Assembly: GCF_963360655.1 (NCBI RefSeq)
Contig: NZ_OY725717.1
Coordinates: 496,001-560,000 of the forward strand
Origin: Collinsella aerofaciens
GTDB lineage: Bacteria > Actinomycetota > Coriobacteriia > Coriobacteriales > Coriobacteriaceae
Direction of reading: 5' to 3'
DNA: 64,000 bases
The stretch's first letter is position 1. Each line of letters opens with the position of its first letter. Below the pieces are notes generated by a model. It was given only the letters and a program-made list of their open reading frames with translations, did no database searches and was not told the origin of the DNA. Both the position numbers and the translations under genes were made by a program. Positions 23,675 to 60,527 of the stretch are shown in pieces.

Positions 23675-23851
23675 CGTGGCACGTTCCCAGTGTGCGGCGG
23701 AGGGGGCGGGCCTGAGACATATTAAGGTTGCTGCTCTACAGTCCTGCTCACGACGGAGAGCACATTAATTGCTCTCCTGTTCGTGCGGAACTCGCGACAA
23801 CCTTAATATGTCTCAGGCCCGCCCCCTCCGCCGCACACTGGGAACGCCACG
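23675..23851. repeat. Long hairpin element A with conserved core
   Basis: Arms of 48 bp are perfectly complementary (23683-23730 with 23798-23845) and continue for 6 bp (23675-23680 with 23846-23851) beyond a 2-nt bulge. The 67-nt centre (23731-23797) contains GTCCTG, an inner stem GGAGAGCA/TGCTCTCC (23755-23762 with 23770-23777) and TCGTGCGGAACTCGCGA. The centre is shared with 41757-41823 and, more distantly, 56347-56410, while the arms are unique to this locus. It lies between the phosphatase stop and the rplC promoter. Confidence 0.92.
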
Positions 23852-37348: not shown

Positions 37349-38025
37349 CCGGGCTCGCGTCTAAAGGCGCGGGCCCGGACTTCGTCCAGGCCTAGTGCAT
37401 CTTGACCCGTGGCGCGCCGGTCGAACCGGCAGCATCACCCCCTCTTGAAGGGGTCCTCGTACTCCTTCACGCTCAGCTTGTCCAGCGCGATGTCGTGGGA
37501 CTCCTGCTCCCTGATGTACTTGGCGATCGTCGCCTCGTTCAGGCCGACGGTGGACACGTAGTAGCCCTCCGCCCAGAACTTCCTGTTGCCGAACTTGTAC
37601 TTGAGGTTGGCGTGCCTGTCGAATATCATCAGCGAGCTCTTCCCCTTCAGGTAGCCCATGACGCTCGCGACGCTGTACTTCGGCGGGATCGCCAGCAGCA
37701 CGTGCACGTGGTCGGGCATCAGGTGCCCCTCGATTATCTCGATCCCCTTGTACTCGCACAGCTTCCTGAGGATCTCCCCTATGTCGCTCCTGATTTGGTT
37801 GTAGATCACTTTGCGCCTATACTTCGGCGTGAACACGATGTGGTACTTGCACATCCACTTCGTGTGGGAAAGGCTGTAGGCCTTCTGGGCCATGGCGACC
37901 ACCCCTTCGACTCGAATTCTTGACGGCCTGAACAATCGTCAATATCGGTCGGAGGGGTGGCTTTGTAAAGCCGTTTGTCTCCACCCGCGTAGCGGGTGGT
38001 TTAAAGCTGGCCGCTGCGCGGCCAG
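37349..38025 (-). mobile_element. IS200-type insertion sequence (approximate limits)
   Basis: A single Y1 transposase gene is flanked by hairpins as in IS200/IS605 elements. On the gene's 5' side are 37959-37972 (GGCTTT/AAAGCC), 37981-37999 and 38007-38025. On its 3' side is 37349-37359 with 37368-37378. No terminal inverted repeats or target duplication are expected for this family, so the exact ends cannot be fixed. It lies between birA and rpsJ. Confidence 0.75.
37435..37893 (-). CDS. tnpA: IS200-family Y1 transposase TnpA
   Basis: The 152-residue protein starts at the ATG at 37893 (MAQKAYSLSHTKW), as is usual for the family. The HUH motif is HVHVLL in LMPDHVHVLLAIPPK and the catalytic Tyr is in ATIAKYIREQ. 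Length and motifs are intact, so the enzyme should be active on single-stranded DNA. No tnpB is present. Confidence 0.93.
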   Translation of the reverse strand: MAQKAYSLSHTKWMCKYHIVFTPKYRRKVIYNQIRSDIGEILRKLCEYKGIEIIEGHLMPDHVHVLLAIPPKYSVASVMGYLKGKSSLMIFDRHANLKYKFGNRKFWAEGYYVSTVGLNEATIAKYIREQESHDIALDKLSVKEYEDPFKRG

Positions 38026-41719: not shown

Positions 41720-41860
41720 CGGATTCCCGGCCCGGGCGGCCCGCTGTTTAAGTTTGCTGCTCTACAGTCCTGCGCAAGACGGAAAGCACATTAAGTGCTT
41801 TCCTTTGCGTGCGGAACTCGCGACAAACTTAAACAGCGGGCCGCCCGGACCGGGAATCCG
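41720..41860. repeat. Long hairpin element B with conserved core
   Basis: Arms of 37 bp (41720-41756 with 41824-41860) pair with one mismatch. The 67-nt centre (41757-41823) is the same length as in element A and identical except at a few bases. The inner stem is GGAAAGCA/TGCTTTCC, an A-T pair where A has G-C. The arms are unrelated to those of A. It lies 84 bp upstream of the rpsL promoter. The 524-bp gap 41515-42038 holds, besides this, the promoter and the anti-sigma terminator, plus a GGGACAGG motif at about 41896. Confidence 0.92.
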
Positions 41861-56248: not shown

Positions 56249-56277
56249 ATTATGGCGGGGACCCCGGCGTCGGTCAA
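56249..56277 (-). promoter_or_regulatory. Promoter of the rplJL operon
   Basis: TTGACC (56272-56277) and CATAAT (56249-56254) on the minus strand are 17 bp apart. The -35 overlaps the foot of hairpin element C. Confidence 0.75.
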
Positions 56278-56479
56278 CGGCAACCCTGACTGCACACAAT
56301 TCCACCATCTCGGCCGCGCCGCCAAAGGCCAGGCGCAAGCTTTTCGCTCGGTCAGGTCCTGGGCTCGCACGAAGAGCACATTTAGTGCTCTTCGGCTCGT
56401 GCGGAATCTACGAAAAGCTTGCGCCTGGCCTTTGGCGGCGCGGCCTGTGTTGACTTTGGGGCAGCCAGGGTTGCCGTTG
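56275..56479. repeat. Long hairpin element C with related core
   Basis: Inner arms of 35 bp are perfectly complementary (56312-56346 with 56411-56445). After an internal loop, a further 19-bp stem with one mismatch pairs 56275-56293 with 56461-56479. The 64-nt centre (56347-56410) shares GTCCTG, GAGCACATTTAGTGCTC and TCGTGCGGAATC with the centres of elements A and B but is more diverged. It lies directly upstream of the rplJ promoter and 60 bp after the aminotransferase stop. Confidence 0.9.
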
Positions 56480-56539
56480 GCCGGCGCGCCCCACGCATAA
56501 CCCTTATGTCGGTGGGCTGATGTGTTGCATCCCTGAGGG

Positions 56540-60374: not shown

Positions 60375-60445
60375 AGCAACCTCCCGGTAAGCTCAACACA
60401 ACGACATCCATTGTATGCCCAGCTTGTATCCTCTCCCCCAAAATA

Positions 60446-60512
60446 AGTTGCGGTGGAATAGTTCCTGTCTGGGCCTTCAGAAGCCTTAAACAGGAACTAT
60501 TCCACCGCAACT
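60446..60512. repeat. 23-bp perfect inverted repeat
   Basis: Arms 60446-60468 and 60490-60512 (core GCGGTGGAATAGTTCCTGT) are exactly complementary around a 21-nt loop. There is no U-run. It lies between the MFS gene stop and the GH13 start on the minus strand. Confidence 0.88.
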
Positions 60513-60527
60513 GATGAGGGGACGTGA

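Follow-up and report, generated by a model that had tools for sequence, protein, structure and literature searches.

The 64,000-nt stretch of the Collinsella aerofaciens genome analyzed here (contig NZ_OY725717.1, positions 496,001 to 560,000; hereafter the window) contains three long hairpins, A, B and C, which the first-pass annotation had placed upstream of the rplC, rpsL and rplJ operons, respectively. Element A, extending over 23682-23846, consists of a left arm (23682-23730) and a right arm (23798-23846) that pair over 49 bp with 100% complementarity, and of a 67-nt core (23731-23797, in plus orientation) with a bulged internal region and an apical stem. The inverted-repeat search delimited element B by arms of 37 bp (41720-41756 and 41824-41860, 97% complementary) around a 67-nt spacer (41757-41823, plus strand), and element C by arms of 35 bp (56312-56346 and 56411-56445, 100% complementary) around a 64-nt spacer (56347-56410, plus strand) that is diverged and carries a GGTCAGGTCC / GGAATCTACG variant. 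Outside the arms of C lie decayed outer arms, at 56267-56305 and 56449-56487, which are 79% complementary to each other. The long, exactly complementary arms attributed earlier to A are confirmed, and so is a conserved center that recurs in B and, in diverged form, in C: the 85-nt centers of A and B are 89% identical, and a covariance model (R1) built from 37 copies matches A at 23719-23815 on the plus strand (E 6e-30) and C with an E-value of 3.6e-23, although these matches are in part built in, since all three hairpins were used in making the model. The 85-nt center of B is in addition identical to those of L004 and L005, which occupy unrelated sites of the same genome and have different arms.

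Scanning the window for inverted repeats with an arm score of at least 20 and a spacer of at most 130 retrieved four, three of which are A, B and C. The fourth, at 60443-60515 (36 nt, 86%, with strict arms at 60446-60468 and 60490-60512), is nearly loopless and has no core. Between A and B, a Y1 (IS200-type) transposase match lies on the minus strand at 37504-37860 (G000:C6:533504-533860); the genome has four such matches, all with the same E-value. At 212-379 a 44-nt sequence, TCCCACTC...GGGACGCAGTTTCCG, occurs in three copies with a spacing of 62 nt and by eye resembles sequence beside the elements L093 and L096. A tRNA search of the window returned none.

Along its plus strand the core reads, after the left arm, (C)TGCTC followed by one to three bases, ACAGTCCTG and a mid helix, and then a variable apical stem, GTGCGGAACT, (C)GCG and the right arm; AGTCC can pair with GG-A-ACT around a bulged A. 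In the core alignment, all 10 arm-helix pairs and six of the eight apical pairs have changed on both sides; no covariation is seen in the conserved inner helix, whose U.G pair is retained in 36 of the 37 sequences. Over the whole structure there are 171 double-changed cells, against a mean of 50.7 in shuffled alignments, and none of 500 shuffles reached 171. Mini-core versions without the long apical stem exist as well, in L330 and L331 and, at the def-fmt site, in 18 of the 20 close loci that could be read.

All three hairpins are members of a non-coding, interspersed family found in the order that includes Collinsella. Where three members restricted to translation operons had been described, a BLAST search with the center of A retrieved 26 copies in this genome at E≤1.1e-6, plus two weaker partial matches, and together with element C and a mini-core copy at def-fmt (L292), which lie beyond those 26, the total comes to at least 28. 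Flanking arms were recognized by local alignment in all of the 26 BLAST copies except one (L019). Nor are the neighbors limited to translation genes: judging from the protein sequences, they presumably also include thrB-, metK/sdaA-, ptsH-, groES- and nrdD-like genes. Across the genus, BLAST with the center of B matched 34 of 43 genomes at E≤0.001, and a covariance-model search matched 40 of 43. At the same threshold R1 matched 159 of the 297 sampled genomes and 42 of the 107 genera of the order, some of them weakly, in six coded families (f1, f2, f5, f6, f7 and f10), so that the core, for which a search in other genomes had been proposed, is not confined to this one. As a specificity control we used 78 loci that a 15-base pattern had picked up by chance (587 kb); one of them (L082, from a Coriobacteriaceae MAG) matches R1 at 7.6e-28, and the best E-value among the other 77, which include the Paraeggerthella locus L110 that we take to be from the same order, is 0.26. 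Among 111 distant loci that were fetched (31 + 80), a script recognized core and arms in 94 and not in the remaining 17, and in all of the 63 distant elements that could be compared the core has the same orientation as the model.

Some elements occur as inverted pairs 223-275 bp apart (in G000, C6 52531/52806, C6 892318/892593 and C1 343430/343653), and such pairs recur in other species. By eye, a second short repeat is seen beside the elements L010, L027, L093, L096, L132 and L196, namely a GAAGGCCAC..GTGGCCTTC hairpin adjoining a AACTTATATATGTT-like stretch and without the full core.

The position of the elements relative to genes is asymmetric. With gene boundaries counted at four gene-finder settings (the gene finder used first had missed the ORF to the right of element A), a left boundary was found within 110 nt of the element center for 32-34 of the 47-53 sites, as opposed to 0-2 for the right boundary, which implies that the elements follow gene ends and that their polarity is independent of the sense of transcription. 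Of the same sites, 19-22 are in a ++ context, 13-16 in a -- context and 14-16 between convergent genes; one is divergent, and therefore nearly every copy is downstream of a gene. At four of 49 sites the end of the left-hand gene reappears, inverted, across the core (p<0.005), whereas about 0.5 would be expected if all 104 elements are counted; the example at def-fmt is weaker (p 0.027). In the reverse direction, with the end of the right-hand gene across the core, no case was found among 35 sites, but since right-hand genes are farther away, the direction of inverted copying is only partly informative.

The arms were compared in 160 distinct Collinsella elements, 155 of which passed the arm filter. 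In the inner 30 arm columns of these 155, 4354 of 4574 positions (95%) are Watson-Crick pairs, and the rest comprise 43 G.T, 43 A.C, 98 other mismatches and 36 gaps. Pairing drops outward to 62% in columns 43-48, beyond which the columns come from a smaller number of longer alignments, matching at their ends by construction. The outer stem (columns 31-66) has more G.T than A.C (110 vs 64), as do the arms overall (159 vs 111), and the left arms are rich in G (41%, with C at 28%). How pairs change was followed in 209 pairs of orthologous elements, each change being counted once per site and column. We found 74 compensated changes (39 transitions and 35 transversions), 20 double changes that yield non-Watson-Crick pairs, and 153 one-sided changes (45 to G.T, 47 to A.C and 61 to other mismatches). 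When tandem sites are arranged by transcription and distinct mismatches are counted once per site over 176 elements, 21 wobbles fall on the sense strand and 24 on the antisense strand (p 0.77); a site-averaged count over fewer elements had leaned toward the sense strand (G.T 3.8 and A.C 1.8 at ++ sites, G.T 0.3 and A.C 3.2 at -- sites), a lean not repeated in the 176-element count. The observation that arms are unrelated between copies holds broadly, with 241 arm matches within sites and 13 across sites. Nine of these 13 reflect, in our reading, a single site that is flipped (L040, six matches) or split in two (L033, three), and four are otherwise unaccounted for (L196 with L195, L220 and L241, and L011 with L160). 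With so few cross-site matches, an exchange of arms between sites was rejected.

Outside Collinsella the arms of the 94 distant elements are also complementary, with 2156 of 2354 inner columns forming Watson-Crick pairs, and their mismatches comprise 93 A.C, 28 G.T and 54 others. The excess of A.C comes from f2 (76 A.C vs 20 G.T, p 7e-9) and perhaps also from f7 (seven to one, p 0.07), with none in f1 (five to four), f5 (four to two) or f10 (one to one). An A.C mismatch on the plus strand of the core is a G.U pair on the minus strand, and the f2 pattern is therefore compatible with two causes, selection for pairing in an RNA read from the minus strand, or a mutational preference for G-to-A on the plus strand. 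By the gene model, 11 of the 15 f2 sites examined are ++ (A.C 15 and G.T 2 at these), so that both neighbors run along the plus strand of the core and a minus-strand RNA would be antisense to them. Genomes of f2 in which A.C dominates the mismatches include those of L397-L400, L412, L413 and L416, a strand bias specific to the lineage.

Most sites are inherited. The elements of this genome fall into 25 site groups, 24 of which have an orthologous element in one or more of three other species. At site A the element was found in 21 of the 21 close genomes read, with mean identities of 77% in the left arm, 80% in the right arm, 95% in the core, 99% in the left flank and 91% in the right flank. 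Because these 21 genomes show few and mutually alignable arm types, a wholesale replacement of arms was dropped for this site; at some other sites, for instance site 22, the arms look unrelated. In nine more distant genomes, inspected by eye, only L270 has the core element at site A; in the rplC slot a long, coreless hairpin is present in L273, L276 and L277, and L271, L272, L274, L275 and L278 have neither. The hairpins of L276 and L277 are very long, near-loopless palindromes and the loop of L273 is unrelated, in a slot where close relatives carry element A. At def-fmt the element is present in all of the 20 close loci that could be read, with two more cut by contig ends, and absent from the eight distant loci read.

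The site of L013 is polymorphic: of 20 readable close relatives, nine have the element, which in two of these runs into a contig end, and 11 have an empty site, a count that leaves out L345, which is unreadable, and the distant L358 and L359. By eye, the empty allele has no palindrome, and the idea of a pre-existing palindrome as insertion target was therefore set aside as unsupported at this site. The left arm, too, is missing from this clearest of the empty sites, which means that the arms there are not simply native flank, and the comparison of filled and empty alleles for a target-site duplication was left with element boundaries that are ambiguous by eye. The inverse duplication of one flank, raised as a possibility in the first-pass annotation, is accordingly borne out in part: the inverted ends of left-hand genes at four sites and their lack in the reverse direction agree with it, but the missing left arm does not. 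L013 and L016 (G000 C6 812715 and 814944) have opposite orientations and flank about 2.2 kb, and the segment between them is missing in relatives whose second element is about 200 nt past the first gene.

The core can be inverted between arms that stay in place. At site 4 this distinguishes L040 from L005, with the same arms on either side, and the core of L295 has the opposite orientation to that in 18 loci that match it on both flanks; L392 is likewise inverted relative to two loci. Over the pairs compared, orientation is the same in 1895 and flipped in 81. In group 15 a further flipped pair, supported by both flanks, was flagged; the 42 flipped pairs of group 2 are supported by a single flank and resemble rearrangements. 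There are also elements whose two arms are of different allelic types (L281, L297 and L298; L309), and non-matching arms are found in L036, L044 and L019 as well. Some of the non-matching arms could be assembly joins; L309 comes from a one-contig genome.

For Collinsella, homogenization of arms that is blind to the type of mismatch, decay toward the outside, inverse copies of gene ends and inversion of the core fit template switching by a polymerase. We infer that such switching keeps the arms complementary in this genus, and regard fold-back copying as the main cause of complementarity in Collinsella to be the best explanation at hand, one that we hold tentatively and with somewhat less than even confidence. 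The structured core consists of conserved bulged segments able to pair, topped by a variable apical stem and set inside the long arms. A nascent DNA strand, after passing one arm and the core, would fold back and copy itself, giving near-perfect inner arms in which a change, whatever its type, spreads to the partner, and leaving the outer stem to decay. The same copying would sometimes place the adjoining gene end, inverted, across the core, and would now and then invert the core itself. The core-bearing unit would moreover have arrived at new positions next to gene ends, and a given site can lack it. Several observations run counter to this. Changes confined to one arm are more numerous (153) than compensated ones (74), the core is conserved throughout the order with its orientation mostly kept, the clear empty site lacks the left arm together with the core, and non-matching arms occur. 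There are also the A.C excess in f2 and the G.T excess in the outer stem of Collinsella, and because of the strand bias in f2 the claim of mismatch-blind arms is limited to Collinsella. Template switching does not account for the conservation of the core, for the identical centers of B, L004 and L005 or for the f2 bias. For the conservation of the core and the identity of centers at unrelated sites, we infer past mobility together with selfish maintenance or an exapted role; our guess is that the core spreads as a selfish or exapted element, recognized as a folded DNA strand by an enzyme. In a stronger form of this idea, which we think rather unlikely, the hairpin would be a mobile DNA element made up of the folded core only, building its arms anew wherever it lands by copying the end of the flanking gene through fold-back, so that the complementary ends of every copy would be its own, with a putative order-specific enzyme recognizing the bulged core on single-stranded DNA. 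No enzyme that mobilizes the family was found.

The arms might instead be kept complementary by selection for pairing in a structured RNA, with the core acting as a motif in mRNA 3′-UTRs, in leaders or in antisense transcripts, for example as an RNase III site, a barrier to exonucleases or a protein-binding bulge. This is a possibility to be taken seriously, if less probable than fold-back copying. Helices that vary around conserved, unpaired segments are a usual feature of structured RNA, the U.G pair of the consensus inner helix is retained almost without exception, core orientation is mostly kept, nearly every copy is downstream of a gene, and the G.T excess in the outer stem of Collinsella as well as the A.C excess in f2, read as G.U on the minus strand, would be expected if RNA pairing were selected. 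However, the favored strands disagree, the U.G pair pointing to the plus strand and the f2 arms to the minus strand, and the latter is antisense to the flanking genes at most of the f2 sites examined. Moreover, Collinsella displays no preference for wobbles in the inner arms (43:43), among one-sided changes (45:47) or between sense and antisense strands (21 vs 24), transversions are as common as transitions among the compensated changes, cores do become inverted, and Rfam gave no match at gathering score. The strand-specific RNA role suggested at first is thus disfavored in Collinsella by the lack of a G.U preference and by the core inversions, and is kept alive by f2.

Selection could also act on the DNA, on a cruciform or a protein-binding site serving as chromosome organizer, insulator or replication barrier, for which complementarity of the arms would itself be the selected property. 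The strand-symmetric Watson-Crick arms of Collinsella, the conservation of positions between species in 24 of 25 site groups and the long hairpins without core in the same rplC slot (L273, L276 and L277) would suit such a role; yet presence is polymorphic among close relatives, unpaired chimeric arms persist and f2 has its strand bias, so that we consider it quite unlikely, and we know of no protein that binds these hairpins. As for a cruciform that insulates a promoter, as proposed in the first-pass annotation, just one of the 47-53 sites is between divergent genes. Mobilization as a REP/REPIN or MITE-type element by a Y1 (RAYT) or DDE transposase is very unlikely. The copies are interspersed, intergenic, palindromic and present in tens, some of them as closely spaced inverted pairs, and the Y1 family is present in 36 of 42 Collinsella genomes, but it is the arms that vary and not the ends, the stems far exceed the 5-13 bp given for REPs in PMC3733652, and a search with PF01797 (Y1) at E≤1e-5 matched nothing in G014 (12 model matches) and G016 (at least 14). 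A REP/RAYT transposase is therefore not required in these element-rich genomes, and membership in that system does not hold. The location at gene 3′ ends could finally suggest intrinsic terminators with unusually long stems, the least probable of the readings and one that we rejected: at least five T within the 8 nt after the 3′ arm were found at only two of 35 sites on the plus strand and one of 35 on the minus strand, and at the L013 site an ordinary terminator-like hairpin follows, by eye, in filled and empty alleles alike.

MITEs, ERIC and Correia-type repeats are non-coding, dispersed sequences that fold into hairpins and have conserved terminal repeats. The Collinsella hairpins are like them in the first three respects, but their ends are mostly private to each site and terminal inverted repeats common to the copies were not found, as is seen from the ratio of within-site to cross-site arm matches. 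The attC sites of integrons are bulged hairpins conserved in structure more than in sequence; those described here are likewise bulged, but the copies are dispersed rather than arranged in arrays and it is the inside that is conserved. PMC3733652 describes REPs as short interspersed intergenic palindromes, in tens of copies and often at or beside gene ends, with stems of 5-13 bp in which G.T pairing is often seen. Like REPs and REPINs, the hairpins are short, dispersed palindromes of similar copy number, intergenic and close to gene ends, whereas the Collinsella stems are several times longer (median strict arm score 31 over 35 sites), the sequence of the arms is free, the center is conserved and G.T pairing is not preferred in the arms. 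The closest parallel to the proposed origin is that of quasipalindromes homogenized by template switching: PMC8604942 reports both homogenization of arms and inversion of the spacer, and cites bacterial data favoring transversions. Homogenization regardless of mismatch type is seen in Collinsella and not in f2, and inversion of the spacer between intact arms is seen for L040 relative to L005 and for L295; the case treated in PMC8604942, however, concerns short-spacer inverted repeats in yeast genes, whereas the spacer here is a conserved family dispersed across a bacterial order.

In keeping with the first-pass remark that no described element of this design was known, no Rfam family, RF01700 among them, reached its gathering score in the window or in 26 further loci (16 + 10), where lax thresholds gave only weaker matches. 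None of the outcomes that the first-pass annotation had named as refuting it arose. Collinsella-1 RNA (RF01700) and HMP2_254 are candidate RNA motifs from Collinsella, the latter being a 51-bp motif directly upstream of L7/L12, according to PMC2864571 and PMC8040213. Compared by position, element C is upstream of an rplJ-like gene. A search of the open-licence PMC literature, with preprints outside its scope, found no published description of the hairpin family, including in the excerpts consulted of PMC8040213, PMC2864571, PMC8604942, PMC3733652 and PMC2267715, and the family is apparently undescribed.

Dispersed palindromes normally keep their ends, whereas in this family the inside is kept across an order and the ends are rewritten and yet remain complementary. 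The copies amount to well over a hundred natural records of inverted-repeat evolution at known sites. If template switching drives the arms, the family would let that process be read from evolution in gut bacteria, and RNA-motif finders would be warned that selection on RNA is not needed for strong covariation. If the strand bias in f2 reflects RNA pairing, a large undescribed RNA family would be at hand. On either reading, the question posed is what recognizes the core, and how the core spreads.
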